Source of the DNA: Alteromonadaceae bacterium
Lineage (GTDB): Bacteria; Pseudomonadota; Gammaproteobacteria; Pseudomonadales; Oleiphilaceae
Assembly: GCA_013393545.1 (NCBI GenBank)
Contig: JABXHG010000588.1
Coordinates: forward strand, 1-22,105
Length of the DNA: 22,105 bases
Reading direction: 5' to 3'
A model generated the notes under the pieces. That model was not told where the DNA came from and did not search any database. It was given only the letters and a program-made list of their open reading frames with translations. A program made the position numbers and the translations under genes. This document shows positions 1,056-22,105 of the stretch, piece after piece. The first letter of the stretch is position 1. Each line of letters starts with the position of its first letter.

Positions 1056-1062
1056 GGCAGCT

Positions 1063-1138: not shown

Positions 1139-1142
1139 TTTC

Positions 1143-1172: not shown

Positions 1173-1202
1173 TGGCACTAAGTTGTTGGTTGGGTGATCA
1201 CT

Positions 1203-1843: not shown

Positions 1844-1856
1844 GCCTCACCCGAAA

Positions 1857-1876: not shown

Positions 1877-1900
1877 ATCAGTCTGATTCAGGGTGAGCCC

Positions 1901-4408: not shown

Positions 4409-4527
4409 GTAACTCTGGCGGGCGCCAGGTTGCCGATTGCTTCACTGTGTAACATCGTCACAGACCCGGACCTATTCCAGGGCTAGGATTAACGGCGGTG
4501 TACTAAACTCAAGAAAGGAGTCATGTG

Positions 4528-5091
4528 ATGAAAAAACAGATCTGCGCTTCACTTATTGGTCTTGCGGCCGCTACGGCATCTCACACGGTTGCGGCGGAAG
4601 ACTGGTCGTTCCCGGGCTTCAACGCCGACGGTTATCAGGTTCAACCCACCGTTGCCTTGGTCGGCGGCGTGATGGATCCCGACATTGGTTCGGCGGATGC
4701 CGGCGGTGTCTATGGGTTGGAGCTGTCCATGGATTGTCCGTTGCTTCAACCGCCTACCAACAGCATTCGCCAACAGGTTAGTCTGACTCAATATGATGAA
4801 GACGGGGTTGAGATCAACAGCCTGGAAATCAATCCGCACTACGTGATGCCCATGGGGGAGAACCTGGAGTTTGGCTTTGGCCCGGGGATTGGCATTCTGG
4901 ATGTGGATGCCGGCTCGCACGATGATACGTTGCTGGGCATTCAGGCCGGCGCCAGCCTGCATTATCGCGAGGGCGCTTTCTTTGCCGGTGCCGAAGCACG
5001 CTACCAGGTGACGACGGAAGAGCGGTTCGGTAACCGGGACCGGGATGCAAATAACGCCCGGGTGCTGCTGAAGGTGGGTGTGAATCTGTAG
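4528..5091 (+). CDS. Secreted outer-membrane beta-barrel-like protein
   Basis: A 187-residue exported protein of unknown exact role. The ATG at 4528 is chosen because AAGGAG (4515-4520) lies 7 nt upstream; a GTG one codon earlier is too close. A signal peptide is clear (MKKQICASLIGLAAATASHT, then VAA before EDW). The mature part has alternating strands: YQVQPTVALVGGVM, GGVYGLELSMD, IRQQVSLTQYDEDGVEINSL, NLEFGFGPGIGIL, LLGIQAGASLHYR, AFFAGAEARYQVT and the end ARVLLKVGVNL. That pattern suits a small OmpA-type eight-strand barrel. The last residue is Leu, not the usual Phe. It stands alone, with its own ribosome-binding site and a hairpin after the stop. Confidence 0.7.
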   Translation: MKKQICASLIGLAAATASHTVAAEDWSFPGFNADGYQVQPTVALVGGVMDPDIGSADAGGVYGLELSMDCPLLQPPTNSIRQQVSLTQYDEDGVEINSLEINPHYVMPMGENLEFGFGPGIGILDVDAGSHDDTLLGIQAGASLHYREGAFFAGAEARYQVTTEERFGNRDRDANNARVLLKVGVNL

Positions 5092-5112
5092 TGAATTTTC
5101 TCTAGAATTCAC
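5091..5112. terminator. Stem-loop between beta-barrel gene and MFS gene
   Basis: GTGAATT (5091-5097) and AATTCAC (5106-5112) pair perfectly. The stem extends to 9 bp with one mismatch around a CTCT loop. It begins at the last base of the upstream stop codon. No T-run follows, so it could be a weak terminator, an mRNA-stabilising hairpin or an operator for the next gene. Confidence 0.35.
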
Positions 5113-5138
5113 TGACCGTTAGGTCCAGAGTCCCCTAC

Positions 5139-6458: not shown

Positions 6459-6544
6459 GGGATCTTATCCGCTGATTATGGCGCGATGTGTCATGCCATG
6501 TCAGAATTGCTAGCCAACTCACCGTTTGGTCAGGAAATTTTTGA

Positions 6545-7453
6545 GTGATTGTCCGTAACCGCCCCGGTGCCCTGAGGCTGATGCTGGCCTGGAAGGGCTC
6601 CGTCGTACCGCAGATTCTGCCGCATATCATTTTGGCCGGGTTGTTTGCCACGGCAGTAACCTGGGTCTCCCGCCATCAATACCTGGATGGCATCGTTGAT
6701 TACACGTTGCTGCCTTTCACCTTGATTGGTATTGCCCTGTCGATCCTGCTGAGTGTTCGCAATACCGCCACCTATGACCGCTGGTGGGAGGCCCGCAAAC
6801 AGTGGGGGCAGATGGTGTATGAAATCCGAAGCCTCGCCCGTACCGCGAGTATCTATCTGGACGATGCATCCCGGCGGGATCTGATGATGAAAGCTCTGGC
6901 TCATACCCATTTGCTGCGTGGGCAGCTGCGTGGCGAAGATGTTCGCTCGGAACTGCCGGAAACCTTATCCCAGGCGCTGGTGGACGAGGCCATGAATAAG
7001 CGCAACCCGGCCGCCTTCATGCTGCAGCAGGCCGGGCTGGTTGTGGCAACGGCTCACAAGAGTGGGGCGGTGGATTCCGTGGCTGCTGCGGCGCTGGATA
7101 AACATCTGCACGGACTGGCGGGCATTCAGGCGGCATCTGAGCGGATCTCACAGACACCCTTGCCGTTCGCCTACACATTGCTGGCGCATCGCACCGCCTA
7201 TGTTTATTGTTACCTGCTGCCGTTCGGGCTGGTGGGTGTGGCGGGTTGGTTTACCCCGGTATTCACTACCATTGTGGCCTATACCTTTTTTGGCCTGGAC
7301 CGGTTGTCGGAACACCTGGAATTCCCGTTCGGCCGGCGGGCCAACGATTTGCCTCTGGATGCGATTTGCCGGGTGCACGAAATCAGTGTGGCGGAAGCCC
7401 TGGGTGAGCCGGCGCCGGAACCGCTGAAGCCGGTGGCTTTCCAGCTTCAGTAG
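6545..7453 (+). CDS. Bestrophin-like membrane protein (YneE/UPF0187 family)
   Basis: A 302-residue membrane protein of the bestrophin/UPF0187 family, in which bacterial members form pentameric ion channels. The conserved core is visible: PFTLIGIALSILLSVRNTAT (about residues 57-76), then YDRWWEARKQWG, and later AYTLLAHRTAYVYCYLLPFG and GLDRLSEHLEFPFG. The start is a GTG at 6545 with AGGA (6532-6535) 9 nt upstream. The family N-terminus (MIVRNRP-x-xLRLMLAWKGS) supports it. The 302-residue length is typical. Ion selectivity cannot be read from the sequence. Confidence 0.87.
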   Translation: MIVRNRPGALRLMLAWKGSVVPQILPHIILAGLFATAVTWVSRHQYLDGIVDYTLLPFTLIGIALSILLSVRNTATYDRWWEARKQWGQMVYEIRSLARTASIYLDDASRRDLMMKALAHTHLLRGQLRGEDVRSELPETLSQALVDEAMNKRNPAAFMLQQAGLVVATAHKSGAVDSVAAAALDKHLHGLAGIQAASERISQTPLPFAYTLLAHRTAYVYCYLLPFGLVGVAGWFTPVFTTIVAYTFFGLDRLSEHLEFPFGRRANDLPLDAICRVHEISVAEALGEPAPEPLKPVAFQLQ

Positions 7454-7513
7454 TGCGCGGGCCAAAATCCGGCCGGGCGCTGTTTATTCACAAGATTCTG
7501 AGAGGACATGACA

Positions 7514-7834
7514 ATGGAGCAGGTGATCACCAAAAAGGTAGCGCCGGAACAGGTGCACGAGCGCGTGGCGGCGGGTGCGGCTTTGCTGGACGTGCGCGAG
7601 CACGATTATTACAGCCGCTTCCACTTGCCCGAGGCCATCAACATCAGCGCAAGGGCCATCAATCTGCAGGCGCCGGACGTGCTTACCGACAGGGATCAGG
7701 AAATCATCTGTTACTGCAACGGCGGCACCCGTGGCCCCCGCGCGGCCAAGGCATTGATGGAGCTGGGGTACCGCAACGTGGCGGTTCTGGATGGTGGCTT
7801 GCGCCGTTACATGAGTATGTTTGAGGGGCAATGA
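7514..7834 (+). CDS. Single-domain rhodanese-like sulfurtransferase
   Basis: A 106-residue rhodanese domain protein, probably cytoplasmic since no signal peptide is seen. The active-site loop is C-N-G-G-T-R with the persulfide cysteine at Cys68, and the LLDVRE motif is at about 24-29. Such proteins move sulfane sulfur from donors to acceptors. The ATG at 7514 is chosen because AGAGGA (7501-7506) lies 7 nt upstream; the ATG at 7508 would be only 1 nt from it. The next gene, ybaK, starts 4 nt after its stop, so the two form a transcription unit. Confidence 0.88.
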   Translation: MEQVITKKVAPEQVHERVAAGAALLDVREHDYYSRFHLPEAINISARAINLQAPDVLTDRDQEIICYCNGGTRGPRAAKALMELGYRNVAVLDGGLRRYMSMFEGQ

Positions 7835-7838
7835 TCGG

Positions 7839-8306
7839 ATGACCCCCGGAATCAATCTCGCCAGGAAACAGAAAATCGCTCATACGGTGCACGAGTACAC
7901 TCACGACCCGGACAGCGAGTCCTACGGCCAGGAAGCGGCGGACAAGCTGGACGTGCCGGCTTCGCGGGTGTTCAAGACGCTGGTGGTGGCCCTGGATAAC
8001 AAAACGTTGGCGGTGGCGGTGCTACCGGTTTCCGGCATGCTGAGCATGAAGCAGGTTGCCAAGGCCGCTGGTGCGAAAAAAGCTACGATGGCACCGCCGG
8101 CGGATGTAGAGCGGGCTACTGGCTATGTGCTGGGCGGTGTGAGTCCGTTGGGACAGAAAAAACGTTTAAAGACCATTATTGATGTGTCCGCTGCGGATTA
8201 CGACACTGTGTATATCAGTGCCGGGCGCCGTGGGCTGGAAATCGAGCTCAGCCCGGACGATTTGAAAAGCCTCACCAACGCCACGTTCGCCGGTATTTGC
8301 CAGTAA
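7839..8306 (+). CDS. ybaK: YbaK-type Cys-tRNA(Pro)/Cys-tRNA(Cys) deacylase
   Basis: A 155-residue YbaK/EbsC-family editing enzyme. YbaK hydrolyses cysteine wrongly attached to tRNA(Pro), working with prolyl-tRNA synthetase. Family marks are RVFKTLVV, LAVAVLPVSGMLSMKQVAKA, AGAKKATMA, ATGYVLGGVSPLGQKKRLKT and ISAGRRGLEIELSPDDL. Lys and Gly residues of the pocket are present. The ATG at 7839 gives the normal MTPGINLARK start. GAGGGG lies about 10 nt upstream inside the rhodanese gene. It ends only 6 bp from the convergent HlyD gene, with no terminator visible between them. Confidence 0.92.
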   Translation: MTPGINLARKQKIAHTVHEYTHDPDSESYGQEAADKLDVPASRVFKTLVVALDNKTLAVAVLPVSGMLSMKQVAKAAGAKKATMAPPADVERATGYVLGGVSPLGQKKRLKTIIDVSAADYDTVYISAGRRGLEIELSPDDLKSLTNATFAGICQ

Positions 8307-8312
8307 ACGGGC

Positions 8313-9533
8313 TTAACGCTCCCGGACCCGGTCGCCGTCTTCCAGTTCCCGGCCCGGGTGGCGGACCACCTGGTCGCCCGGGGAGAGGCCTTCGGTAATG
8401 GCGGTGATCAAACCGTTACTCTGGCCAATGGTGACCGGCTGGAGGCTGGCTACCCCGTCCTGTACCCGAAACACGGCGTGCTCACCGTTGTGCTGGAAAA
8501 TAGCGGAGGCCGGCACTTGCAGCGTGTCGTCGCTTTGCCAAAGGACAAAGGCTGCATCCACTCGGTAACCATCGCCCAACTGCGCCCATTGTTTGCGGGG
8601 GCTGATCATGTCTGCAATAACCTGCACCCGCTGTTCTTCCACGCCCAATGCGGAGATGTCTTCAAAGCCAACCGGCTCGATACGCCGAACCGATGCTTCC
8701 AGAGCAGGGCCGCCCCAGCCGTGCAGGCGCACGGCCGTGCCGGGGGCGAGCTTGACGGCATCAAAACTCAGCACCTCCACCACCACTTCCAAAGCGCCCG
8801 GGTCGCCCACTTCCAGGATGGGTTCGCCGGCCTGGATCACGCCTTCGCTTTCGCGGATAAGGCTCAGCACCGCGCCGTTCACAGGCGAACGCACTGCGAC
8901 ACGCTCGGCGGGCTTTTCGCCAGCTTCACTGGCGGCGGAAACCTGCAGGCGGGTGCGGGCGGCGGCCAGTTGGTGTTCGGCCACTTCCTGATCAAACCGC
9001 GCCGAGCGCATGATCGCTTGGGCCCGGGCGGCGGTGGTGCGGGCCTGTTGCAGTTGTTCCGCTGAAACAAATCGAGAATCCGCCAGCCGCTGCAGGCGCT
9101 GATATTCTGAGGCTGCAAACTCCGCTTCGGCCTCGGCCGCCGTCACTTTCTGGCGGATGGATTCCAATGAAGCCCGGGCAGCCTGGATTCGGGCCTGGGC
9201 CTCGGCCCGGCTGCGGGCGTCCAGCATGGTGGCGGGCATTGGGTCTACCCAGGTGAGCAGTTCACCGGGAATGACGGGATCGCCAACTTCAAGCTGTGGG
9301 CGGTGCAGGTAACCGGTGACCGGCGCGGAAATCTGGTAACGGTCTTTGACCCGGCTCTTGCCCTCTTCAACCAGCGTCACTTCCATGGGGCCGCGCTCAA
9401 CGGTGGCCAGGTCCACCCAGACCGGTTCCGGGCGCAGTACGAAGGCAAAGGCCGCCAGGGCGATTACCGCCAGCAGGGCCCAGAAGATCCGTTTTCCTGT
9501 GATTCGCTGTTTGTTTGCCATTGCCAATTCCAT
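8313..9533 (-). CDS. HlyD/MacA-type periplasmic adaptor of ABC exporter
   Basis: A 406-residue membrane-fusion protein. An N-terminal anchor (about residues 16-32, IFWALLAVIALAAFAFVL) is followed by the first half of the barrel-sandwich (YQISAPVTGYLHRPQLEVGD). A long Ala/Arg/Glu-rich coiled-coil hairpin follows, about residues 105-195. The second lipoyl half is VAVRSPVNGAVLSLI, then beta-barrel and membrane-proximal domains. It should link the inner-membrane ABC permease encoded just upstream to an outer-membrane channel not in this window. It starts 9 nt after the permease stop. An internal ATG at residue 5 (9521) has GGAATT upstream and may be the real start. Confidence 0.88.
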   Translation of the reverse strand: MELAMANKQRITGKRIFWALLAVIALAAFAFVLRPEPVWVDLATVERGPMEVTLVEEGKSRVKDRYQISAPVTGYLHRPQLEVGDPVIPGELLTWVDPMPATMLDARSRAEAQARIQAARASLESIRQKVTAAEAEAEFAASEYQRLQRLADSRFVSAEQLQQARTTAARAQAIMRSARFDQEVAEHQLAAARTRLQVSAASEAGEKPAERVAVRSPVNGAVLSLIRESEGVIQAGEPILEVGDPGALEVVVEVLSFDAVKLAPGTAVRLHGWGGPALEASVRRIEPVGFEDISALGVEEQRVQVIADMISPRKQWAQLGDGYRVDAAFVLWQSDDTLQVPASAIFQHNGEHAVFRVQDGVASLQPVTIGQSNGLITAITEGLSPGDQVVRHPGRELEDGDRVRER

Positions 9534-9542
9534 TGTCAGGGG

Positions 9543-11921
9543 CTATTCCCGGGTTTTCAGGACCGCCACCAGGTCCAGTTTACGCAGCCGCCGCCAGGTT
9601 ATGAAGCCGGACACCAGCGCCGAGGCAATCACCACGCAGGCGGCCAGCGCCAGTGTCTGGCTGGTGATGATCAGTGGCACACGGTACAGCTCGGTCTGCA
9701 TGGCCGTGACCACCAGATGGCCCAGGCCCGCGCCAAACATCCAGCCCATCGGAATACCCAGTACCAGCAGCAGGGCCAGTTCTCCAAGCAGGATGTGGGC
9801 GATTTCCGGCTGGTTGTAGCCCAGCACCCGCAGGCTGGCCAGGTCCCGCGCGCGTTCGGCCAGCGAGATCCGGGCGGTGTTGTAGATCACTCCGAAGGCG
9901 ATGATGCCGCCCAGCAGGCTGATGATGAAAGTGTAGGTCAGGAAGGTTCTGGCCAGGGTGTCGAAAAAACTGTCGAGCATGGCCTGGCGCTGGTTAGTAG
10001 CCATTACTCTGGGGGTGTCTCGCAGGCGCTGGTAGACGTTGTTCGCCCGTTCTGGTTGCAGGTTCATCAGCATCTGATTGATGACCGGGCCCTCCCGCAA
10101 TGCCTGGTTCATGGCGCGGAGGTCCATGTAGGCGCCCACCCCGAGAAATTCACTGGTGACTCCTGCCACCGGCAGGATCAGGGTGGGGCGGTGTTGTTCG
10201 AGCACCCGTACCTGCAGGAAATCGCCCGGGCGTACATTGAGCCGTTGGGCCAGAAAATCCGTGAGCAGCAGTCCGCTGGGCGGTATGGCTACGTTGTTAA
10301 GGTCACTGTCCACCACGAATTGTAGCCGGGCGTTTTCCGGCAGGCCGGTCAGGGCGGTGCGCCAGGTACGATGACCGCTGACCAGTTCCACTGCCACAGA
10401 GCGGCGGCCCTCGGCGTAACGCACCCCAGGCTGGCGGACCATGCTGTACAGCGCCGTCTGGTTCACCGGATCGGTCAGGGTGACGGTCACATCCTGTTTC
10501 TGAACCCGGGCAAACTGGGTGTGGACCATCAGTTCCACTGAACTGAACTGGAAATTGCCCACCACGACGATGGCGGTTGCCATGGCGATGCCGGTAATGG
10601 ACAGCGCGGTACGCCCCGGCCGCCGGGCCAGTTGCCGGACAATCATCCGGGAGGGCTGGCGGAAACGCACGCGGGACAGCAGGCGTTCGATATGGGAAAC
10701 CTGATAACGGGCAGGACCCTCCGGTTGCATGGCCTCGGCCGGGGGCAGGGAGGCGGCCCGGCGAATGGCGCGCCAGCCACCGAGCCAGGCGATAAAAAGG
10801 CTTAGTACCGCCAACAGCAGCAACCACAATGGGTTGATGCGGAACAGCAAGGCCGGGAACCGGTAGTACTCCATGTACAGTTCGCCCAGTGCGCGCCCAA
10901 GCCAAAGACCGATGCCGGTGCCGATCGCCAGGCCAATGGTGGCTATGGTGAGCACCAGTTGGCTGTAATGCCAGGCGATCTCCCGGTTGCTGTAGCCGAA
11001 AGCCTTGAGTACCGCAACGATATCGCGCTGGGTGCTGATCAGCCGGCCAATCACCACGTTCAGCAGGAACATGGCCACGCCCATGAAGATGGCTGGGAAG
11101 ATCACGGCCATGGCTTTCAGCTGTTCCAGTTCGTCACTCAGGAAGCGGTGGGAGAACTGATCTTTGCGGGCGTAGGCACCGGTGCTGCCATAGCGCTCGA
11201 GCAGCCGGTCCAGGCGGTCGATGACATCCGCTACCGGATAATCGGGGGCGGTCTGTAGCACCAGGCTGTTGAAGGCACCGCGCAGATCCATGGCCGAGGC
11301 CAGGGCCTCCCGAGGCAGCCACAGCACGCCATAGCGCTGGTAATCCGGCAGCATGCCGCCGGGCGGGATCACGTAGATGAATTCCGGGGATGCAGCGATG
11401 CCCACCACCGTGAGGGTCTGTTTCCGACCGTTAATCACGGCACTGAGAGTGTCGCCCGGTTGCAGGTGGTGGGCGTCGGCGAAGCTGCCGATGATCACGG
11501 TTTCCTGGTTCCGCCCTGGTTCCGGTAGCCGGCCCTGACGCAGATACAGCTGGTTGACGGCGGGTTGTCCGGTAGTTGGCAAGGAAACCAGGCGGGCGGA
11601 AACCGGATCGTTGAAGCCGGCCACCTCCAGTTTGGCGGCCCCCTCAACCCGGGCGCTTAGTCTGCGAACACCGGGGATCCGCTCAATCTGTTGCTCAAGA
11701 TGCCGGGGGGCGCGTTTGAGGGATACGAACACATCGGCAAACTGCTGTGCCTGGTAATACTGCTGGCGGGTAGCGTCCAGTGAGGTGTAGTTCACGATCG
11801 ACAGCAGGCACACCGCGATGCCGCCGGCTATTACCAGGGCGATGGCCAGTACCTGGCCGCGAATCTGCCAGAGTTCTCGCTTCAGTTTGGTGTGCAGAAC
11901 GCTGCCGCGGGGCCCGAACAT
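9543..11921 (-). CDS. FtsX/MacB-type ABC transporter permease
   Basis: A 792-residue permease built from two FtsX-type halves. One transmembrane helix lies at about residues 22-44. A large periplasmic region (about 50-270) follows, then three helices between about 275 and 390. The second half repeats the pattern, with a helix near 440-460, a second periplasmic domain and three helices between about 665 and 785. The halves share the cytoplasmic-loop style STQRDIVAVLKAFGYSNREI and RARDLASLRVLGYNQPEI, characteristic of FtsX domains that touch the ATPase. Its ATG comes 2 nt after the ATPase stop. Substrate unknown; family members handle lipoproteins, peptides or drugs. Confidence 0.9.
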   Translation of the reverse strand: MFGPRGSVLHTKLKRELWQIRGQVLAIALVIAGGIAVCLLSIVNYTSLDATRQQYYQAQQFADVFVSLKRAPRHLEQQIERIPGVRRLSARVEGAAKLEVAGFNDPVSARLVSLPTTGQPAVNQLYLRQGRLPEPGRNQETVIIGSFADAHHLQPGDTLSAVINGRKQTLTVVGIAASPEFIYVIPPGGMLPDYQRYGVLWLPREALASAMDLRGAFNSLVLQTAPDYPVADVIDRLDRLLERYGSTGAYARKDQFSHRFLSDELEQLKAMAVIFPAIFMGVAMFLLNVVIGRLISTQRDIVAVLKAFGYSNREIAWHYSQLVLTIATIGLAIGTGIGLWLGRALGELYMEYYRFPALLFRINPLWLLLLAVLSLFIAWLGGWRAIRRAASLPPAEAMQPEGPARYQVSHIERLLSRVRFRQPSRMIVRQLARRPGRTALSITGIAMATAIVVVGNFQFSSVELMVHTQFARVQKQDVTVTLTDPVNQTALYSMVRQPGVRYAEGRRSVAVELVSGHRTWRTALTGLPENARLQFVVDSDLNNVAIPPSGLLLTDFLAQRLNVRPGDFLQVRVLEQHRPTLILPVAGVTSEFLGVGAYMDLRAMNQALREGPVINQMLMNLQPERANNVYQRLRDTPRVMATNQRQAMLDSFFDTLARTFLTYTFIISLLGGIIAFGVIYNTARISLAERARDLASLRVLGYNQPEIAHILLGELALLLVLGIPMGWMFGAGLGHLVVTAMQTELYRVPLIITSQTLALAACVVIASALVSGFITWRRLRKLDLVAVLKTRE

Positions 11922-11923
11922 GA

Positions 11924-12643
11924 TTACCAGCTCAAAGTGTTTGGGGCCTGGCGGATGGCGTTGCGCTGCTCGCCACTGATCAAGCCGTCGGAGAGAGTGA
12001 TTACCCGGTCCGCCATGTTGGCGATGGAGGCGTTATGGGTAATGATGACTGTGGTGGTGCCGGTTTCCCGGTTGGCCTTTTCAAGCGCTTCCAGCACCCG
12101 TATGCCAGTGGCCGAATCCAGAGCCCCTGTGGGCTCATCACACAACAATACATTGGGCTGTTTGGCAATGGCCCGGGCGATGGCCACTCGCTGTTGCTCG
12201 CCGCCGGAAAGCTGAGCGGGGAAGTGATCGGCCCGGTTCGCCAGCCCCACCAGGTCAAGCGCGGCCTCCGGGGTCATGGGGTTGCGGGCGATTTCGGTGA
12301 CTGCCACGATGTTTTCCCGCGCGGTCAGGCTGGGGATCAGGTTGTAGAACTGGAACACGAATCCCACGTAGTCGCGACGATAGAGGGTAAGCTCTTTGTC
12401 GCTGGCGCGTGCCAGGTCGGTGTCCAGATAACAGACTTCGCCGCTGGTGGGCACATCCAGCCCGCCCAGTATGTTCAGCAATGTGGATTTGCCGGAGCCG
12501 GAGGCCCCGAGCATGACCACCAGTTCACCGCTGTACAGGTCCAGATCAATACCACGCAGGGCATGGACTTCCACTTCACCCTGCAGGTAGGTTTTGGTCA
12601 GGCCCGAGGTGTGGAAGACGGGCGGGGAAAACGGCTCGGTCAT
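11924..12643 (-). CDS. ABC transporter ATP-binding protein, LolD/MacB type
   Basis: A 239-residue ATPase subunit and first gene of a three-gene minus-strand operon with the permease and HlyD-type adaptor. All motifs are intact: Walker A GASGSGKS (46-53), Q-loop Gln98, signature LSGGEQQ (145-151), Walker B VLLCDE (165-170) and H-loop His203. It belongs with the LolD/MacB/FtsE group that powers extrusion without carrying substrate through a classical channel. GAGG lies about 12 nt before the ATG. The C-terminus ends a few residues past the usual family end. Confidence 0.93.
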
Positions 12644-12732
12644 GTTCGGGGTGGCCTCGTTTCATCCGTGTGGGTTCGGGGATCGTAATAGCTCGGGAAT
12701 TCGGGAATACAGTAGCTCAAAAACAACTTTGC

Positions 12733-12762
12733 TCTGGCCCGGTTTAGCCAGACGACCGGAGG
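12733..12762 (+). promoter_or_regulatory. 5' leader hairpin and ribosome-binding site of MAPEG gene
   Basis: TCTGGC (12733-12738) pairs with GCCAGA (12747-12752) around an 8-nt loop. The GGAGG ribosome-binding site follows at 12758-12762, 4 nt before the ATG. The divergent region (12644-12766) must also hold the promoter for the ABC operon, but I found no convincing -35/-10 pair there. Confidence 0.35.
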
Positions 12763-12766
12763 ACGC

Positions 12767-13192
12767 ATGAATAACCTGATAGAAGTATATACCACGGCAT
12801 TTCAGGGCATGGCGGCACTGATCGCTCTGTGGCAGCTGCAATGGTTTGTGGCGAGCTTCACCAAGGCGTCCCGGCCTGATGCCGTGCCGGGAAAAATTGA
12901 CGACTCCCTCAGCCACGAATCGTTTGTGTTCCGGGCGCACAGGACGTTCATGAACTCGCTGGAGAACCTGCCGGCGATGTTCGCCACCGCCTTTCTGGCG
13001 CTGCTGGTGGGTGCCGACCCGTTCTGGACCGGGCTGCTGATCTGGCTGTTTGTGGCGGCAAGGGTGGTGCACATGGCGCTGTATTACGCCATTGCCACCG
13101 AGCGTAACCCCAGCCCCCGCTCTTACTTTTTCATGATGGGTCTGGCCGCCAACCTGGGGCTGTTGGCGGTGGCCGCGGCTACTCTGATTTGA
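12767..13192 (+). CDS. MAPEG family membrane protein
   Basis: A 141-residue membrane protein of the MAPEG family (membrane-associated proteins in eicosanoid and glutathione metabolism). Four hydrophobic segments fit. The conserved loop FRAHRTFMNSLENLPAMF at about residues 61-78 is the family's glutathione-contact region, with Arg, Asn and Glu in the usual order. Bacterial members are often glutathione transferases or peroxidases, though for many no activity is known. A glutathione-dependent oxidoreductase gene follows 96 bp downstream, which fits a thiol-related role. The strong GGAGG supports the start. Confidence 0.87.
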   Translation: MNNLIEVYTTAFQGMAALIALWQLQWFVASFTKASRPDAVPGKIDDSLSHESFVFRAHRTFMNSLENLPAMFATAFLALLVGADPFWTGLLIWLFVAARVVHMALYYAIATERNPSPRSYFFMMGLAANLGLLAVAAATLI

Positions 13193-13229
13193 AGAGACAA
13201 GCCTGTTTTTCGGTGGTGGGTGCAGGTCA

Positions 13230-13258
13230 TGCCAAAGTTCCGTTAGAGTGGTTATGAT
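13230..13258 (+). promoter_or_regulatory. Candidate promoter of yghU
   Basis: TATGAT (13253-13258) is a 5-of-6 match to the -10 consensus, about 30 bp before the gene start. The hexamer 17 bp upstream (TGCCAA, 13230-13235) is a poor -35, so an activator would be needed if this is the promoter. Confidence 0.25.
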
Positions 13259-13288
13259 AAGAACCCCAACCGATGCAGAGGTGTGCAA

Positions 13289-14161
13289 ATGAGTGACCCG
13301 ACCTATACCCCGCCGAAAGTATGGAAATGGGAGCCCAACAACGGCGGTGAATTTGCCAGCATCAATCGCCCGATTGCCGGCCCGACTCATGACAAGGAAC
13401 TGCCGGTGGGCGACCATCCGTTTCAGTTGTATTCACTGGCCACGCCCAACGGGGTGAAAGCCTCCATCATGTTCGAAGAGCTGCTGGAAAAGGGCATCAA
13501 GGAAGCGGAATACGATGCCTGGCTGATCCGCATCGGTGATGGCGACCAGTTCAGTAGTGGCTTTGTGGAGGTGAACCCCAACTCCAAGATTCCCGCCATG
13601 CTGGACCGTTCCGTGGAGCCTGCCATCCGGGTATTTGAATCCGGCTCTATCCTGTTCTATCTGGCGGAAAAGTTCGGTGAGTTTCTGCCCACAGACCCGG
13701 CCAAACGCACCGAAACCATGAACTGGCTGTTCTGGCAGATGGGCAGCGCGCCGTTCCTGGGTGGCGGCTTCGGGCATTTTTATGTGTACGCGCCTGAAAA
13801 GTACGAATACCCGATCAACCGCTACACTATGGAAGTGAAGCGCCAGTTGGATGTACTGGACCGTCACCTGGCGGAAAACCGCTACATGGTGGGGGATGAA
13901 TACACCATTGCCGATATGGCCATCTGGCCGTGGTACGGTGCGGTGGTGAAGAACATTGTGTATGACGCGGCTGAATTTCTGGAAGCGCATAGTTACACCA
14001 ATGTGATTCGCTGGGCCGACGAGATAGCACAGCGCCCGGCGGTGAAGCGTGGGCGCATGGTCAACAAAACCTGGGGCGAGCCGGCCACCCAGCTGCACGA
14101 GCGGCACGACGCCAGTGATTTTGAGTTCCGTACCCAGGACAAGCTCGAAAAAGAGAAGTAA
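13289..14161 (+). CDS. yghU: YghU-type glutathione-dependent disulfide-bond oxidoreductase
   Basis: A 290-residue nu-class glutathione transferase closely like E. coli YghU, which binds two glutathiones and reduces disulfides and organic peroxides. The near-identity of family blocks is easy to see: INRPIAGPTHDKELPVGDHP, LYSLATPNGVK (catalytic Thr/Asn region), YDAWLIRIGDGDQFSSGFVE, VNPNSKIPAM, RVFESGSILFYLAEKFG, RTETMNWLFWQMG, APFLGGGFGHFY, DEYTIADMAIWPWYG and LHERHDASDFE. The ATG at 13289 has GAGG 8 nt upstream and gives the YghU-like start MSDPTYTPPKVWKWE. It probably belongs to the same locus as the MAPEG gene. Confidence 0.96.
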   Translation: MSDPTYTPPKVWKWEPNNGGEFASINRPIAGPTHDKELPVGDHPFQLYSLATPNGVKASIMFEELLEKGIKEAEYDAWLIRIGDGDQFSSGFVEVNPNSKIPAMLDRSVEPAIRVFESGSILFYLAEKFGEFLPTDPAKRTETMNWLFWQMGSAPFLGGGFGHFYVYAPEKYEYPINRYTMEVKRQLDVLDRHLAENRYMVGDEYTIADMAIWPWYGAVVKNIVYDAAEFLEAHSYTNVIRWADEIAQRPAVKRGRMVNKTWGEPATQLHERHDASDFEFRTQDKLEKEK

Positions 14162-14183
14162 CCAGCAAGAGAAAGGAGGCGTC

Positions 14184-15792
14184 ATGGCGGTACCCGCAGC
14201 GTTGACCGAGGATCAGGTTTATCACCGTTGCCCGATCGAGAAGCTGGATTTCGATTCAACCGATACGCTTGACGATCTTGAGCAGCCAGTCGGCCAGGAA
14301 CGCATGCTACGGGCGCTGGAGTTTGGTGCCAGCATGCAGGCCGGCGGTTTCAACCTGTTTGTGCTGGGTCCCTCCGGCGCGGGTAAACATGAGTTGGTGA
14401 AAAGCTTTTTGTCTCGGCACGCGGCCGGGCTGCCGGCGCCGCCTGACTGGTGCCACCTGTTCAACTTCAAAGCCTCTGACAAGCCCCGGGTGGTCAAGCT
14501 GGCGCCTGGGGAAGGCCATCAGTTCAGGGATGACATGAACGATCTGGTTGCGGAGCTTAAAACCGCCATTCCCGCCACCTTTGAAAGCGAAGAGTACCAG
14601 GCGCGGATTCAGGAGTTGCAGGAAGAAGTGGCCAAACGCCAGCGCCAGGGCATGTTCGAAATCCAGGAAGAGGCCAAGCGCAGTAATATCGCGATGCTGG
14701 CCACGCAATCCGGGTTCACGTTTGCCCCGATGCGAAACGGCGAGGTGATTGATCCCGAGGAATACGAAAACTTTTCAGACGACGAAAAGTCGGCTGGCCA
14801 GTGATCAGAAAAAACTCACCGCCCATGACCGTGTGCTGAAAGATCTGCTGGCGGAAGCCGATCACTGGGCTGGTCGCGGCGGTAGTGAGGTCATTGACGC
14901 AGTTCATGTGCAGCAAGCCATTGATGAGCGTGAATATCGGGCCAGCCGCATTCGCGAACGCAGTCTGGAGCAGATCCAGCGTGGCGTGGTGATGATTGCC
15001 ACCACCGGTGAGCAGGTGGGGCAGGTTAACGGCTTGTCGGTGCTGCAGCTGGGCGCTACCCGTTTTGGCCAGCCCACCCGAATCACCGCCACGGCGCACC
15101 CAGGTAAAGGGCAGGTGGTGGATATCGAGCGTGAAGCCAAACTAGGCGGGCCGATTCACAGCAAGGCGGTGATGATCCTCTCCCGCTTTCTGGCCAACCG
15201 TTACGCGCCTCTGGGGCAGTTGTCGTTGTCCGCCAGTCTGGCTTTCGAGCAGTCCTACGGGGGTGTGGAAGGCGATTCCGCGTCGGTGGCGGAAACCTGT
15301 GTGTTGCTGTCGGCGATCACCGGTGTGCCTTTGAAGCAGTCCCTGGCGGTCACCGGTTCCATGAACCAGCACGGTGAAGTTCAGGCCGTGGGTGGCGTGA
15401 ACGAAAAAATAGAGGGCTTTTTCCGGGTGTGCCGGCAATCCGGGCAGGTGAAAGGGCAGGGGGCGCTGTTGCCCGCCAGCAACGTTGAGCATTTGATGCT
15501 TGAAGAGGCTGTACGCGCGGCAATCAGGGCCGGGGATTTCAGTATTTATCCGATCCGCCACATTGATGAGGCGATTGAACTGATGACCGGCCTGCCCGCC
15601 GGCCAGCCGGATGCCGATGGCCAATACCCGGAAGGCAGCTTCAACCGCCGGGTGGCGGACCGGCTGGCGGCATTCGCCGAGGCCACGGAGGCGAAAGACG
15701 AAAACGGCACCGTTCACGGAGCCTGCGGCGATGAGAATCCTGCAACCGGTGGCCGCGAATTTGCTGGTCACCGTCATGCTCTGAGCGTTTGA
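14184..15792 (+). pseudogene. Lon-like ATP-dependent protease with internal deletion and frameshift
   Basis: Two parts of one Lon-like protease (LonB-type with AAA_32 domain, usually about 800 residues). Part one starts at the ATG 14184 behind AAGGAGG. It runs about 200 residues, with Walker A LGPSGAGKHE near residue 60 and an alpha-helical segment ending at NGEVIDPEEYENFSDDEK. Family similarity then jumps, at about 14,785-14,792 and in the +1 frame, to SRLASDQKKLTAHDRVLKD. The frame continues through the protease domain to 15792, including catalytic Ser (GDSASVAE) and Lys (NEKIEGFF). The middle, which should hold Walker B and the sensors, is absent: by my recollection of family length about 250-300 residues (roughly 0.8 kb). 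Frame one reaches a stop at 14802-14804. A TTG at 14749 could start the second frame but would give no working ATPase. A mis-joined assembly is also possible. Confidence 0.85.
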
Positions 15793-15814
15793 CGAATATC
15801 AGAAAGAGAGAGTC

Positions 15815-16540
15815 ATGATTTTCGATATTGTTGTCATTGTCGGCCTGACCACGCTGGCCGGCGCCTTCATCCCTCTCGGTGGTTTACTGGCCAGTGTTGA
15901 AACCCTTCGCCCGCACTGGCTTGAAAAGGAGTTCCGGCATTTTTTGATCGCGTTGGGTGGCGGTATTTTGCTGGGCGCCGTGTCGGTAGTGCTGATTCCC
16001 GAGGGTCAGGCCAGCATGGGGGATTCGCTGTGGGCGATACCGGCCATTGTGAGCGGCGGTGTGCTGTTCTTTCTGATAGAGCGAATGCTTGGCCTCAAAC
16101 GGCGTGAGTCTCCGCAGCTAATGGGGCTGATGCTGGATTTTATCCCCGAGGCCATTGCCCTCGGCGGGTTGGCGGTGGCCAGCCCGAAAACGGCGGTGCT
16201 GATGGCGGTGTTGATTGCCATCCAGAACCTGCCGGAGGGCTTTAACGCCTATCGGGAGCTGATCAACCTGCCTCGCCACACCTCTCGCAAAACCCTGACG
16301 TTTATGACGTCGCTGGTCATGACCGGGCCCATTGCCGGGCTGCTGGGGTACTTTTTTCTGTCAGACCGGCCGGTGATTCTGGGGGCGGTTATGCTGGCAG
16401 CCTCGGGGGGTGTGCTGTACCTGATTTTTCAGGACATTGCGCCCCAATCACGCCTTGAGCGCCACTGGGGCCCACCGCTGGGTGCGGTGGTCGGGTTCTG
16501 CGTGGCGCTGTTCAGTCATGATCTGGTCACGCATTTCTGA
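15815..16540 (+). CDS. ZIP-like metal transporter family protein
   Basis: A 241-residue membrane protein with about eight hydrophobic segments and ZIP-family layout. The transport helices carry FIPEAIALGG (around Pro111-Glu112) and AIQNLPEGFNAYRE (around Gln137-Glu141). In ZIP proteins such as ZupT these read HNxPEG, with His and Asp/Glu as metal ligands. Here the histidines are replaced by Asp108-Phe and Gln137. Glu residues remain, and a third PEG occurs at 62-64. Zinc-type transport is therefore uncertain, and a divergent ZIP subgroup is the best call. The ATG at 15815 has GAGAGAG just upstream. It ends 6 bp from the convergent ftsH stop. Confidence 0.75.
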   Translation: MIFDIVVIVGLTTLAGAFIPLGGLLASVETLRPHWLEKEFRHFLIALGGGILLGAVSVVLIPEGQASMGDSLWAIPAIVSGGVLFFLIERMLGLKRRESPQLMGLMLDFIPEAIALGGLAVASPKTAVLMAVLIAIQNLPEGFNAYRELINLPRHTSRKTLTFMTSLVMTGPIAGLLGYFFLSDRPVILGAVMLAASGGVLYLIFQDIAPQSRLERHWGPPLGAVVGFCVALFSHDLVTHF

Positions 16541-16546
16541 CCGGCT

Positions 16547-18445
16547 TCAGGCATTGGCCGCATCTTGTTCGAGGGTGTCCCGCACTTCTTCGGCGGACAG
16601 TGTTTCCTGTTTCAGGACGGCCTGGGCCAGCGCTTCCAGCTGGGTGCGGTGGTCGGTCAGAAACTCCAGGGTCGCTTTTTCCAGGGCCAGTAACTGAGCC
16701 TGAATTTCACTGTCGATCTGCTCGGCCATTTTCTCACTGAATTCCCGGGGATGGCCCATTTCCCGGCCCAGAAACACGTGTTCTTCGCCGATGTTCAGGC
16801 CAAGCGGGCCGATCTTGTCGCTCATGCCCCACTGGCCGATCATCCGGCGTATCAGGGTGGTGGCTTCTTTCAAATCGTTCTGGGCGCCGGTGCTGACTTC
16901 GCCATAAATCAGCTTTTCCGCGCAGCGGCCACCAAGCATGACCTTGATCCGGTCTTTCAGATAGCTTTCGGTGTAGGTGTAGTGGTCGTCCCTTGGCGTT
17001 TGTTCGGTGACGCCCATGGCCATGCCGTGGGGAATGATGGTGAGTTTGGTGAGCGGGTCTGCATTCGGCATGAAGTAGGCCATCAGGGCATGACCGCACT
17101 CGTGATAGGCCACGGCTTCACGCTCCTGGGGCGGCAGCCTGGCATCGCGTTCCTCGCCCAGGGTAATACGGTCCCGGGCCAGCTCAAAGCAGTGTTCGTT
17201 GACCTCATTCAGCCCCACCCGGGCGGCGGTCAGCGCTGCTTCGTTCACCAGGTTGTGCAGATCGGCGCCGGAGAAGCCGATGGTGCGGGCGGCAATGGCC
17301 TCCAGTTTAACGTCGTCGGCCAGTGGCACCTTGCGCACATGCACTTTCAGAATGGCCTCGCGGGCTTCTTTATGGGGTCGGTCCAGGGTGATCTTCCGGT
17401 CGAACCGGCCGGGGCGCAACAGGGCGGTGTCCAGCACATCCGGGCGGTTGGTGGCGGCCAGTACCAGTACGTTTTCGTGGTCTTCAAAGCCATCCATTTC
17501 GGTCAGGATCTGGTTCAGGGTCTGTTCCCGCTCATCGTGGCCACCGCCAAGGCCTGCGCCCCGAGAGCGGCCGATGGCGTCCAGTTCGTCGATGAAGATC
17601 AGCGCTGGCGCTTCCTTGCGGGCTTCCTTGAACATGTCCCGCACCCGGGCTGCGCCCACGCCCACGAACATTTCGATAAATTCCGAGGCGCTGATGCTGT
17701 AAAACGGCACTTCCGCCTCGCCGGCAATCGCTTTTGCCAGCAGGGTTTTGCCGGTGCCGGGCGGGCCGACCAGCAGGATGCCCTTGGGCATGATGGCGCC
17801 CAGGCGCCGGTACTTTTCGGGAGTTTTCAGGAAGTCGATCACTTCGCCGATTTCCCGCTTGGCGGATTCAATGCCGGCGACATCGTCGAGGGTGGTGGTG
17901 GAGGTTTCCCTGCGAGCGCGCCTGGCTTTCGAGCGGCTGAAGTCCAGCACGCCGCCGCCCTGGGCCATGCGCTTCTGGGCGTTGCCCCAGAACCAGAACA
18001 ACAGCGCCAACAGCAAAATCCAGGGTACTACGCTCAGAATCAGTTCCTGCCACCAGGGGCGACCGGAGCGGGCGCCACGAATGGTCACCTGTTGCTCTTC
18101 CAGCATCGGTAACAGTTGAGCGTCTTCGGTTTGTGGGCGCAGGGTGACAAACCGGTTGCTGGCGGTTTGCCCGTCCGAGCTAAACCGGCTGGCTCCGGCG
18201 TCGCTGAACTGGCCAAGGATTTCTTCCTGGCGCAGGGTGACTTCTTCCACCTGGCCGGCCATCACCGCTTCCTTGAATTCGGAGTAGGCCACTTCCTGCT
18301 GCTGGGGCTGATTGGCGCCTTGCATCCACAGCACCATCAAAAAGATGGCAGCACTCAACCAAATGAAAGAGTACTGGTTGGGTATGGCCGGTTGTGGGTT
18401 GTTGTCCGGCTGTTGTGGCTGGTCGGGCCGCCTTGGCTCGGTCAT
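16547..18445 (-). CDS. ftsH: FtsH ATP-dependent zinc metalloprotease
   Basis: A 632-residue membrane-anchored AAA+ protease that degrades membrane and short-lived cytoplasmic proteins as a hexamer. Two membrane helices (about residues 25-41 and 134-153) flank a small periplasmic domain. Walker A is GPPGTGKT (227-234), Walker B IFIDELDA (283-290), the second region of homology ends LLRPGRFDR (342-350), the zinc site is HECGH (448-452) and the third ligand is Asp524. The usual HEAGH has Cys for Ala, which keeps both His and Glu. The ATG at 18445 is chosen because GGGAG lies about 6 nt upstream; a TTG at 18478 overlapping the ggt stop is less likely. The FtsH folding/cell-division context genes (rrmJ, folP) are missing, so this may be a second copy in the genome. 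Confidence 0.93.
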   Translation of the reverse strand: MTEPRRPDQPQQPDNNPQPAIPNQYSFIWLSAAIFLMVLWMQGANQPQQQEVAYSEFKEAVMAGQVEEVTLRQEEILGQFSDAGASRFSSDGQTASNRFVTLRPQTEDAQLLPMLEEQQVTIRGARSGRPWWQELILSVVPWILLLALLFWFWGNAQKRMAQGGGVLDFSRSKARRARRETSTTTLDDVAGIESAKREIGEVIDFLKTPEKYRRLGAIMPKGILLVGPPGTGKTLLAKAIAGEAEVPFYSISASEFIEMFVGVGAARVRDMFKEARKEAPALIFIDELDAIGRSRGAGLGGGHDEREQTLNQILTEMDGFEDHENVLVLAATNRPDVLDTALLRPGRFDRKITLDRPHKEAREAILKVHVRKVPLADDVKLEAIAARTIGFSGADLHNLVNEAALTAARVGLNEVNEHCFELARDRITLGEERDARLPPQEREAVAYHECGHALMAYFMPNADPLTKLTIIPHGMAMGVTEQTPRDDHYTYTESYLKDRIKVMLGGRCAEKLIYGEVSTGAQNDLKEATTLIRRMIGQWGMSDKIGPLGLNIGEEHVFLGREMGHPREFSEKMAEQIDSEIQAQLLALEKATLEFLTDHRTQLEALAQAVLKQETLSAEEVRDTLEQDAANA

Positions 18446-18474
18446 TTCTGTCTCCCGTCGGGTAACAATTCGAC

Positions 18475-20235
18475 TCAATAGCCCATGGCTGATGAGGTGC
18501 TTCGTCTTGGGTCGGCGCCACCGTACAGGGTACCGTCATCGTCGATCAGGATGCTCTGGATGGCCCCCATGGCACGGCTTGTGGTGATGCTATGGCCTCG
18601 AGCCCGCAAAAGTTCAACCGTGTCAGGGCTAAAACCCTGTTCTATGCGGATTTCATTCGGCAGCCACTGGTGATGCATGCGCGGGGCGCTCACGGCGCTC
18701 TGTATGTTCATATTATGGTCGATGACGTTCATCAGTACTTGCAGTGTGGTGGTAATAATGCGGGAACCGCCGGGGCTGCCGGTGACCAGAAGGTTGCGGC
18801 CGTCCTTGCGCACGATGGTGGGCGACATGGAACTGAGCATACGTTTGCCCGGCTCAATCTTGTTTGCCTCGCCGCCGATCAGTCCGTAAGCGTTGGGTAC
18901 GCCGGGTTTGGCGCTGAAATCGTCCATTTCATTGTTGAGCAGGAAGCCTGCACCGGCTACGGTGATGCCCGAGCCGTAGCTGAAATTGATGGTGTAGGTG
19001 TTCGAGACGGCATTGCCCCAGCGATCCACGATGGAGAAGTGAGTAGTTTCATTGCTTTCCCAGGGCGCCGGGTTGCCGGCGCTGATCTCGCTGGAAGGTC
19101 GGGACTGGTCGGAATCGATAGTGGCCTGCAGGGCGGCGGCGTAGCCCTTGCTGGTCAGGCCGGTGAGCGGTACCTCCACAAAATCGGTATCGCCCAGGTA
19201 TTTCGCCCGGTCCGCGTAGGCCAGTTTCATGGCTTCGGCCATGTGGTGAACGGTGTCTGCGGAGTTGTGGCCCATCTCGCCGATGGGGTAGTGCTCCAGG
19301 ATATTCAGGATCTGCACGATGTGAGTGCCACCGGAGGAGGGCGGTGACATGGAATAGATATCATGGCCTCGGTAGGTGCCGTGCACCGGTTCACGAATGG
19401 CCGGCTGGTAGGCTTTCAGATCGTCCAGTGTGATCAGGCCATCGTGGCGCTGCATTTCCTCGACAATCAGGCGGGCGGTTTCGCCTTCGTAAAAGCCCTT
19501 GGGGCCTTGGTTCGCTATGCGCTGCAGGGTGTCGGCCAGCTCCGGTTGTTTGAAAACCGTACCGGGCCGGGGGGCTGAGCCATCGGCATTATAAAAAGTG
19601 GCTTTGGTGGCCGGCCAGCGCTCGAGGCGATCCCGGGCCTGTTCCAGGCCCTCAGTGAAGCGCCGGGGCACTTCAAAGCCGTCCCTGGCCAGCTTGATGG
19701 CCGGTGCCAGGGCCTGCCTCAGGGAAATCGTGCCATGGCGCTCCAGGGCGAGTGCAAGCCCGGCCACGGTGCCGGGTACACCGGCGGCCTGGTGGCTGAA
19801 GCGGCTGCGCTGCTGCACGACTTCGCCATCGGCGTTCTGGAACAGGGTTTCGGTGGCGGCCGCCGGGGCGGTTTCCCGGTAGTCGATGGCCTCCGGGGCA
19901 TCGCCATCGCCGGGGGCGTAGAGCATGAAACCACCGCCCCCAATGTTACCGGAACGGGGCTGGGTTACGGCCAGGGCGAAGCCGGCGGTGACCGCCGCAT
20001 CCACGGCATTACCGCCGTTCTTGAGTACTTTCAGGGCGATTTCCGTGGCCAGGGTGTGGCTGGTGGCTACCATGCCCTGCGAGCCCTGAACCGGGTGGAA
20101 GCGTTCGCCTTCCAGAATGGCCTGGGCCCTTGCCTGCGGAATGCTGGCAAAAAAGAGCATCAGTAGCGTGGCCAGCAGGCTCTTGGCGCGTTTTGCGGTG
20201 ATTTCCGGCGGTCGGTTATCCATCACTGTGTCCAT
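18475..20235 (-). CDS. ggt: Gamma-glutamyltranspeptidase precursor
   Basis: A 586-residue periplasmic enzyme that cleaves or transfers the gamma-glutamyl group of glutathione. The N-terminal signal (KSLLATLLMLFFASIPQARA) is followed by the large subunit. Autocleavage before the Thr in SNETTHFSIVD (Thr397 counted from this start) makes the small subunit. Other signatures are PRSGNIGGGGFML, DYRETAP, SPPSSGGTH, RMLSSMSPTIV and TGSPGGSRII. The ATG at 20235 has GAGGAG 8 nt upstream; an upstream frame start at 20286 has no such site. ftsH follows 29 nt after its stop, so the two may be co-transcribed. It is divergent from purU. Confidence 0.95.
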   Translation of the reverse strand: MDTVMDNRPPEITAKRAKSLLATLLMLFFASIPQARAQAILEGERFHPVQGSQGMVATSHTLATEIALKVLKNGGNAVDAAVTAGFALAVTQPRSGNIGGGGFMLYAPGDGDAPEAIDYRETAPAAATETLFQNADGEVVQQRSRFSHQAAGVPGTVAGLALALERHGTISLRQALAPAIKLARDGFEVPRRFTEGLEQARDRLERWPATKATFYNADGSAPRPGTVFKQPELADTLQRIANQGPKGFYEGETARLIVEEMQRHDGLITLDDLKAYQPAIREPVHGTYRGHDIYSMSPPSSGGTHIVQILNILEHYPIGEMGHNSADTVHHMAEAMKLAYADRAKYLGDTDFVEVPLTGLTSKGYAAALQATIDSDQSRPSSEISAGNPAPWESNETTHFSIVDRWGNAVSNTYTINFSYGSGITVAGAGFLLNNEMDDFSAKPGVPNAYGLIGGEANKIEPGKRMLSSMSPTIVRKDGRNLLVTGSPGGSRIITTTLQVLMNVIDHNMNIQSAVSAPRMHHQWLPNEIRIEQGFSPDTVELLRARGHSITTSRAMGAIQSILIDDDGTLYGGADPRRSTSSAMGY

Positions 20236-20263
20236 GGCGTGCACTCCTCGTTTCTGGCTCTCA

Positions 20264-20280
20264 GATAGGCTATCATAGCC
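20264..20280. promoter_or_regulatory. Overlapping inverted repeats between ggt and purU
   Basis: GGCTA TCA TAGCC (20268-20280) and GATAG G CTATC (20264-20274) are two overlapping palindromes, about 30 bp upstream of the ggt start. On the minus strand they contain TATGAT, a possible -10, but no good -35 is seen. They could be an operator for ggt. Confidence 0.3.
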
Positions 20281-20312
20281 GGTCATTTTTACCGGTGCGT
20301 GCCGATCGTCAT

Positions 20313-20330
20313 CGCAGGTAGTCGCCTGCG
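20313..20330. repeat. Stem-loop in the purU leader
   Basis: CGCAGG (20313-20318) pairs perfectly with CCTGCG (20325-20330) around TAGTCG. It lies 49 bp before the purU start. No T-run follows on either strand. Its role is unknown; it could separate the divergent ggt and purU promoters. Confidence 0.3.
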
Positions 20331-20378
20331 GTTCCCCGTCGCACCCGCTTTCCCGGATTCAAGTTAAGGAAAGGCTTC

Positions 20379-21230
20379 ATGGAGCATACCTATCGTCTTG
20401 TTATTTCCTGCCCCGATCGGGTGGGAATTGTTGCCAAGGTGAGTAATTTCCTGTCCACCTACAATGGCTGGATTACCGAGGCGAGCCACCATTCAGATAC
20501 CCAGTCCGGCTGGTTCTTCATGCGGCATGAGATCAAGGCCGAGTCGATCCCGTTCGGGTTGGAGCAGTTCCGCACGGCCTTTGAGCCCATTGCCCGTGAA
20601 TTCAACATGAGCTGGCACATCGCCGATTCGGCCCGCCCCAAGCGGGTGATCCTGATGTGCAGCAAGGAGTCCCACTGTCTGGCAGACCTGCTGTACCGCT
20701 GGCACAGCAAGGACCTGAACGCGGAAATCGTGGCGGTGATCTCCAATCACGATGACCTGCGCCGGATGGTGGAATGGCACGACATTCCCTACCACCACAT
20801 TCCGGTGAGCAAGGAAAACAAGGCCGAGGCGTTCCGTCATATCGAAGAGCTTTTCGAGCACTACGAAACCGACGTGGTGGTGCTGGCCCGCTACATGCAG
20901 ATCCTGCCGGAAGCGCTGTGCGAGAAGTACGCCGGCAAGGTGATTAATATTCACCACAGCTTCCTGCCGTCGTTTGCTGGTGCACGCCCGTACCACCAGG
21001 CCTATAGCCGGGGCGTGAAGCTGATCGGCGCCACCTGTCACTACGTGACCCAGGACCTGGACGAGGGGCCCATCATCGAGCAGGACGTGGTGCGTGTCAC
21101 CCACCGGGACCACGTCCACGACCTGAAGCGCCTGGGCGCGGAGGTCGAGCGGTCCGTCCTGTCCCGCGCCGTGCTCTGGCACGCCCAGGACAAGGTGATC
21201 CGCACCGGGAACACCACGATCGTGTTCTAG
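20379..21230 (+). CDS. purU: Formyltetrahydrofolate deformylase, chimeric 3' end
   Basis: A 283-residue PurU: an N-terminal ACT domain (about residues 5-75), then a formyl-transferase-like catalytic domain. PurU hydrolyses 10-formyl-THF to formate and THF, feeding purine synthesis and balancing one-carbon pools. Active-site residues are present: Asn190 and His192 in NIHHSFLPSF and Asp228 in DLDEG. AAGGA (20366-20370) lies 8 nt before the ATG. The frame is intact and full length, but codon use changes inside it. Of codons 161-220, 49 of 60 end in G or C; of codons 221-283, 62 of 63 do. The C-terminus (VERSVLSRAVLWHAQDKVI) also looks actinobacterial, as do the following genes. The gene therefore reads as a head from one genome and a tail from another, joined in a conserved stretch. 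Confidence 0.93.
   Translation: MEHTYRLVISCPDRVGIVAKVSNFLSTYNGWITEASHHSDTQSGWFFMRHEIKAESIPFGLEQFRTAFEPIAREFNMSWHIADSARPKRVILMCSKESHCLADLLYRWHSKDLNAEIVAVISNHDDLRRMVEWHDIPYHHIPVSKENKAEAFRHIEELFEHYETDVVVLARYMQILPEALCEKYAGKVINIHHSFLPSFAGARPYHQAYSRGVKLIGATCHYVTQDLDEGPIIEQDVVRVTHRDHVHDLKRLGAEVERSVLSRAVLWHAQDKVIRTGNTTIVF
21038..21100. other. Composition switch: gammaproteobacterial to actinobacterial DNA
   Basis: Up to the TGT at 21036-21038 purU uses many A/T-ending codons (ATT, AAT, TTT, GCT, GCA, TAT). After it, only CGT at 21093-21095 and the TAG stop do not end in G or C. The DNA to the window end stays very GC-rich and encodes actinobacterial-style genes. The join should lie in the conserved DLDEGPIIEQD region, where two purU genes could share sequence. 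Confidence 0.75.
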
Positions 21231-21234
21231 ACGT

Positions 21235-21256
21235 CCCGTCCCCCGAGGGTGACGGG
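21235..21256. terminator. GC-rich hairpin between convergent purU and scoB
   Basis: CCCGTC (21235-21240) pairs with GACGGG (21251-21256), with further C-G pairing inside. It fills most of the 29 bp between the purU stop and the scoB stop. A strong hairpin without a T-run is common for actinobacterial terminators and could serve both strands. Confidence 0.45.
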
Positions 21257-21259
21257 GTG

Positions 21260-21907
21260 TCAGCGCACCTCGAACGGTGCGCCCGTGATCTCCTTCAGGT
21301 CCTCGACGGTGACACCGTCGGCGCACTCGACCAGGGTCAGCCCGTTCTCGGGGTCCACCTCGAAGACGTCGTGCGAGGACACGATCAGGTCGCCGCACTT
21401 CGCGCCGGTCAGCGGCAGGGAGCACTGCTCGACGATCTTCGGGTCACCCTTGCGGGTCACGTGGTCGGTCATCACGATGATCTTCTGGGCACCGTGCACC
21501 AGGTCCATCGCCCCGCCCATGCCCCGGACGAGCTTGCCCGGCACCATCCAGTTGGCCAGGTCGCCGTAGCGGGAGCTCTCCATGGCACCCAGCACGGCGA
21601 CGTCCACCGACTTCGAGCGGATCATGCCGAAGGACTCCGAGGAGCCGAAGAAGCTGGCGCCGTCGTTGACGGTGATCGTCTCCTTGCCGGCGTTGATCAG
21701 CTCCGGGTCGACCTCGTCCTCGGTGGGGTACGGCCCCACGCCGAGCACACCGTTCTCCGAGTGCAGGATGACGTCGATGTCGTCCGGGACGAACCCCGGC
21801 ACCAGGGTGGGCATGCCGATGCCCAGGTTCACGTACTGGCCGTCCTCGAGTTCGGCGGCGACGCGCGCCGCCATCTGCTCACGGTTCCATCCGGTGTTGT
21901 CTGCCAT
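21260..21907 (-). CDS. scoB: 3-oxoacid CoA-transferase subunit B
   Basis: A 215-residue beta subunit of succinyl-CoA:3-oxoacid (or 3-oxoadipate) CoA-transferase, which moves CoA from succinyl-CoA to acetoacetate or 3-oxoadipate. The catalytic Glu is in [13 protein letters not shown]; other family blocks are [61 protein letters not shown] and [17 protein letters not shown]. The ATG at 21907 is chosen because AAGGAGG lies about 9 nt upstream. It follows the subunit A stop by 4 nt. Nearly all codons end in G or C, and the start [17 protein letters not shown] is actinobacterial in style, unlike genes left of 21,000. Confidence 0.93.
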
Positions 21908-21911
21908 GGTC

Positions 21912-22105
21912 TCAGGCCTCCTTGTTCTGGGCGGGCCGGGTCGTCCTGTTCTCGATGCCGGTCTCCTGGGGTCCGACGTGCACCACACGGTCGACGTAGA
22001 TGCCGGGCAGGTGGACCTCGTCGGGGTCCAGACGGTCGACGAGGTGCTCGACCTGCGCGATCGCCACGGTGGCGCACTTGGCGGCCTCCGGGTTGAAGTT
22101 CTGTG
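21912..22105 (-). CDS. scoA: 3-oxoacid CoA-transferase subunit A, C-terminal part
   Basis: The last ~64 codons of the alpha subunit, cut by the window edge. The visible protein begins [20 protein letters not shown] and ends with [20 protein letters not shown], then [14 protein letters not shown] before a TGA at 21912-21914. The NFNP and HLPGIYV-x-RVV blocks are standard for this subunit. It pairs with scoB 4 nt downstream to form the working enzyme. Composition is the same very GC-rich type. Confidence 0.88.

Follow-up and report, generated by a model that had tools for sequence, protein, structure and literature searches.

Does the contig analysed here (22,105 nucleotides, hereafter the window) come from one genome, or from two that meet inside the gene purU, and if from two, what joined them? 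The gene is a single open frame of 283 codons (Table 1), and the initial annotation had drawn attention to a flip of codon use in the middle of this full-length frame. Its counts proved exact, with 49 of the 60 codons from 161 to 220 ending in G or C, against 62 of the 63 codons from 221 to 283. In a two-segment fit to the purU codons, the optimal split came behind codon 220; a fit as good was reached by 1 of 5,000 codon shuffles. We compared codon use across a set consisting of 11 genes to the left of purU, the purU head and scoB. The richest 63-codon run held at most 57 G/C-ending codons in the other scored genes except scoB (62), and GC3 was 0.95 in scoB versus 0.62–0.79 in the left-hand genes, the purU head included. 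Judged by the family model alone, the translated frame is a PurU: it resembles the family in scoring above the curated TIGR00655 cut-off over residues 6–283 (354.6 bits versus 285.95), but it differs in its make-up, with the first 226 residues of Marinobacter type, the last 46 of Corynebacterium type and the 11 between them common to both.

Table 1 Features of the window, with positions counted from its first letter.
Feature	Position	Strand	Details
Marinobacter part of the contig	1–21,056		right end is purU codons 1–226; before purU, divergent ggt, ftsH and others
Hybrid purU (formyltetrahydrofolate deformylase)	20,379–21,230	+	283 aa; TIGR00655, 354.6 bits; two sources
Likeliest join, LDEGPIIEQDV	21,057–21,089	+	33 nt; protein identical between the M. 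persicus-type PurU and P0002/P0003; conservative limits 21,039–21,091
Corynebacterium-type 3' end of purU	21,090–21,230	+	residues 225–283 93% identical to P0002 and 90% to P0003; residues 226–283 53–59% identical to 80 Marinobacter
scoB, 3-oxoacid CoA-transferase subunit B, Corynebacterium-type	21,260–21,907	−	98% identical to C. kalidii P0121; TIGR02428, 309.9 bits
scoA 3' end, cut by the contig end	21,912–22,103	−	from translation; TIGR02429, 35.9 bits

Searching the two parts of PurU separately, a check that the initial annotation had put forward, led to different phyla: residues 1–215 matched Marinobacter (Gammaproteobacteria), and residues 225–283 matched Corynebacterium and other actinobacteria. 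The two sides of the contig come from different organisms, as in a chimeric contig.

For residues 1–215 (7,999 candidates scored, best 120 listed), the best matches besides the window itself were three proteins of 284 residues each (P0241–P0243) at 100% identity, followed by M. persicus at 99%. Named organisms among the matches listed were Marinobacter or close gammaproteobacteria, the exceptions being one 'Pseudomonadota bacterium' and one Streptosporangium jomthongense. The protein labelled with the latter name, that of an actinobacterium (P0263), matches residues 1–215, within the Marinobacter part of PurU, at 89% identity and probably reflects a mislabelled or contaminated genome. P0241 and P0243 agree with the window through the motif LDEGPIIEQDV and then continue into Marinobacter tails, representing the intact counterpart of the hybrid; P0242 likewise has a Marinobacter tail, but carries E instead of Q at residue 225. 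A scan of genome contigs with the whole PurU recovered 429 relatives, of which 80 were kept, all 80 titled Marinobacter. Against these, purU codons 1–220 were 77.9–93.2% identical in DNA and 84.1–99.1% identical in protein, with the M. persicus locus (L001) giving 93.2% and 99.1%, respectively. Beyond purU, positions 5,167–21,149 are collinear with one M. persicus contig in seven blocks of 79–87% DNA identity; bases 1–5,166 were compared in part only, with positions 1,838–2,451 showing 91.7–93.5% identity to three further genomes from the genus. Gene names were assigned by reading translations, except for purU, the Lon-like gene and the toxin–antitoxin pairs.

The Marinobacter part holds two other features. 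A Lon-like protease gene (14,184–15,792), with a LonC_helical domain followed by LonB_AAA-LID and Lon_C, is interrupted at 14,788, where about 839 bases (838–840 by alignment) are missing and the frame is broken. The missing bases are present in all seven genus genomes compared, and by eye the two ends of the break have no more than one or two bases in common. Either a real deletion or another artefact may lie behind the break, which is not explained by homology-driven joining. Nearer the left end, within 364–2,451, three 85-nt repeats lie about 700 bases apart (at 364, 1,063 and 1,768), the second and third showing 92% and 80% identity to the first copy. Each is followed by a toxin–antitoxin-like pair (one HigB/HTH and two Phd-YefM/ParE), and together the repeats and pairs look like an integron cassette array; parts of this region also occur elsewhere in the genus.

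On the right-hand side, the search with residues 225–283 returned 2,373 matches (best 120 listed), the best besides the window being P0002 and then P0003, which belongs to a Corynebacterium sp. MAG. All 29 of the named organisms among the matches listed were actinobacteria (counted by eye), and P0002 would itself be a Corynebacterium protein, judging by its likeness to P0003. The scoB product, for which 8,000 candidates were scored and the best 120 listed, is closely similar to a protein of Corynebacterium kalidii (Table 1), a name on which a literature search found nothing. Named organisms among its listed matches were Corynebacterium or Corynebacteriaceae, with one Mycobacteriaceae bacterium as the sole exception. 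Another scoB protein, P0123, is 95% identical. The longest contig recorded for it, at 513,141 bases, has the same length as that recorded for P0002, a hint, short of proof, that purU and scoB share a contig in that relative. Family models agree with the gene names: scoB scores above the TIGR02428 cut-off, and the 63-residue scoA stub falls below the full-length TIGR02429 cut-off of 128.5 bits. The initial annotation had described all DNA to the right as actinobacterial-style scoA–scoB with very high GC; the gene identities and the high GC of scoB were borne out, but 'all DNA' amounts to only about 1.0 kb. No Corynebacterium appeared among the plasmid-collection matches listed, whether for DNA (best 20 of 830 records, identities 65–73%) or for protein (best 15 of 654, with Rhodococcus opacus on top at 61.5%), and scans of viral contigs found no relative. 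Between the convergent ends of purU and scoB, a hairpin lies within 21,230–21,261; the 51 nt at 21,225–21,275 fold with −22 kcal/mol (z −2.0), a stability reached by 8 of 200 shuffles, and in the Corynebacterium parent the hairpin perhaps served both genes as a terminator.

Comparison with the 80 Marinobacter loci displays the same division within purU and beyond it. Protein identity to these loci was 53.4–58.6% over residues 226–283. The difference in DNA identity between head and tail averaged 17.0 points for the window versus the 80 loci (7.6–24.9), against a mean of −1.8 (SD 2.7, maximum 7.7) among 3,160 pairs of Marinobacter. When the genus was searched with a 1,727-base query, the main purU match started at base 1 and ended at 710–822 in 122 of 124 genomes; the remaining pair comprised one genome that matched bases 1–35 only and one that gave no match. 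The scoB part had weaker matches elsewhere in some genus genomes (65–72% identity among the matches listed). In the 362–5,000 bases covered downstream of purU, all 80 Marinobacter loci carry gyrA and none carries scoB.

By codon use alone, the switch falls at codon 220/221. Residue comparison adds that the window has the Marinobacter pair Q225-D226, where P0002 and P0003 have E-N, and that from V238 onward it agrees with P0002 and P0003. On these alignments, the switch most likely lies within 21,057–21,089. The initial annotation had located it in a conserved stretch (DLDEGPIIEQD), and this fits, with LDEGPIIEQD identical in all eight aligned Marinobacter and actinobacterial PurU and V237 present in seven of them (T in C. 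terpenotabidum P0066). Position 21,057 is a likely left boundary of the join, though not a strict one, because P0242 has E at residue 225 and D at residue 226 also occurs in the actinobacterial proteins P0004, P0066 and P0022. More conservatively, the left limit is 21,039, residue 220 being C in 80 of 80 Marinobacter and A in P0002 and P0003, and the right limit is 21,091, because the window base at 21,092 occurs in none of the 80 Marinobacter.

The protein motif encoded by the join stretch is identical in the likely parents, which may also share its DNA; the DNA was compared on the Marinobacter side only, where the exact 33 nt occurred in 1 of 80 loci (L062), inside a 51-nt exact run. The other 79 had 1 to 8 mismatches in the stretch, so the true overlap may be shorter than 33 nt. 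Exact runs of at least 21 nt partly overlapping the stretch were found in 10 of the 80 Marinobacter, and none of the longest overlapping exact runs extended past 21,091. In the Corynebacterium parent, the 33 nt are presumably identical to the window.

The hybrid protein has one member in the database, on one contig of 22,105 bases; this sole listed contig matches the window in length, and the window we therefore take to be a whole contig. Its end lies 1,016–1,049 bases past the join. No second contig with the hybrid was seen among the database proteins, which are clustered at 90% identity, so that absence is not absolute: a further hybrid could hide inside a cluster, this one having about 91% identity to P0241. 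Within that limit, the arrangement was absent from independent assemblies, scoB following purU at 0 of 80 loci. A literature search found nothing on an interspecies chimera of Marinobacter and Corynebacterium, and searches on chimeric contigs led to broad papers about assembly.

Two sources, a located breakpoint and no other contig seen with the hybrid are direct results of these comparisons; from them we infer what made the join. Very probably the contig is an artefact in which an assembler or an amplification step joined two genomes present in one sample, and the hybrid purU–scoAB arrangement is then no biological feature. Bases 1 to about 21,057–21,089 would derive from a Marinobacter close to M. 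persicus and the source of the last 1.0 kb would be a high-GC Corynebacterium near C. kalidii. The pieces would have been joined through the short purU stretch encoding the conserved LDEGPIIEQDV, and because the join fell there the reading frame remained open. Common assemblers start at k of about 21–33, and a short-read assembler crossing between the genomes via shared k-mers would be the likeliest route, with template switching during amplification next. The expected picture of a k-mer join is an intact frame, a switch in codon use, a change of neighbour from gyrA to scoB and a contig end soon after. The initial annotation had regarded assembly as the simpler explanation, and gyrA at 80 of 80 loci, together with the single hybrid contig seen, favours an artefact over recombination, the ranking being by inference. 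According to a review of metagenome assembly (PMC7299287), shared sets of k-mers link the graphs of closely related species and so give rise to chimeric contigs, and inter-genome chimeric contigs may falsely imply a new species. The present contig is like those in carrying sequence of more than one genome, but whereas the review concerns closely related species, different phyla are linked here by one short conserved coding stretch.

A share of the probability given to an artefact, although a small one, belongs to an in vitro chimera. An unfinished Marinobacter strand ending in the motif could have primed on Corynebacterium purU during PCR or whole-genome amplification, and the resulting hybrid molecules would then have been assembled correctly. 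Such an origin likewise predicts a breakpoint at this place, within a short conserved stretch. It could also accommodate the break at 14,788 on the same contig, as a further join or deletion lacking shared ends, since some amplification methods could produce changes of this kind; however, that change may be a true deletion. Moreover, the contig could follow hybrid molecules only if these were locally more abundant than correct ones. The picture would not differ between an amplification chimera and an assembler join, and reads alone would tell them apart.

True recombination, with Corynebacterium DNA entering a Marinobacter cell and crossing over at the conserved stretch to give a hybrid PurU and imported scoAB, appears highly improbable. 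Exchange can in principle start from short stretches in common, and both the intact frame and the score above the PurU cut-off are as this origin would have them. Against it, gyrA, which lies downstream in all 80 Marinobacter loci, would have been lost or displaced; the high-GC codon use and the near identity of scoB to that of C. kalidii would make the event very recent; the clustered database showed the hybrid on no further contig; and the 1.0 kb between the join and the contig end includes no return junction. We give correspondingly little credence to a living Marinobacter with a functional PurU whose last 46 residues, along with scoAB, would have come from Corynebacterium, that is, to an inter-phylum in-frame fusion by an 11-residue crossover. 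Codon bias varies along genes, but a single genome with a local bias in purU is practically inconceivable when residues 226–283 are 53–59% identical to the 80 Marinobacter versus 84–99% for residues 1–220, and a Corynebacterium-type scoB follows.

Read as an artefactual join, the chimeric purU contig is relevant to quality control only. Because its frame is open and its PurU score exceeds the cut-off, gene callers and family models would accept the hybrid as one normal protein. Joins of this kind could find their way into protein databases, where they might be taken for inter-phylum gene transfer; a step in codon use, combined with a separate search for each half of the protein, offers a means of detecting them.
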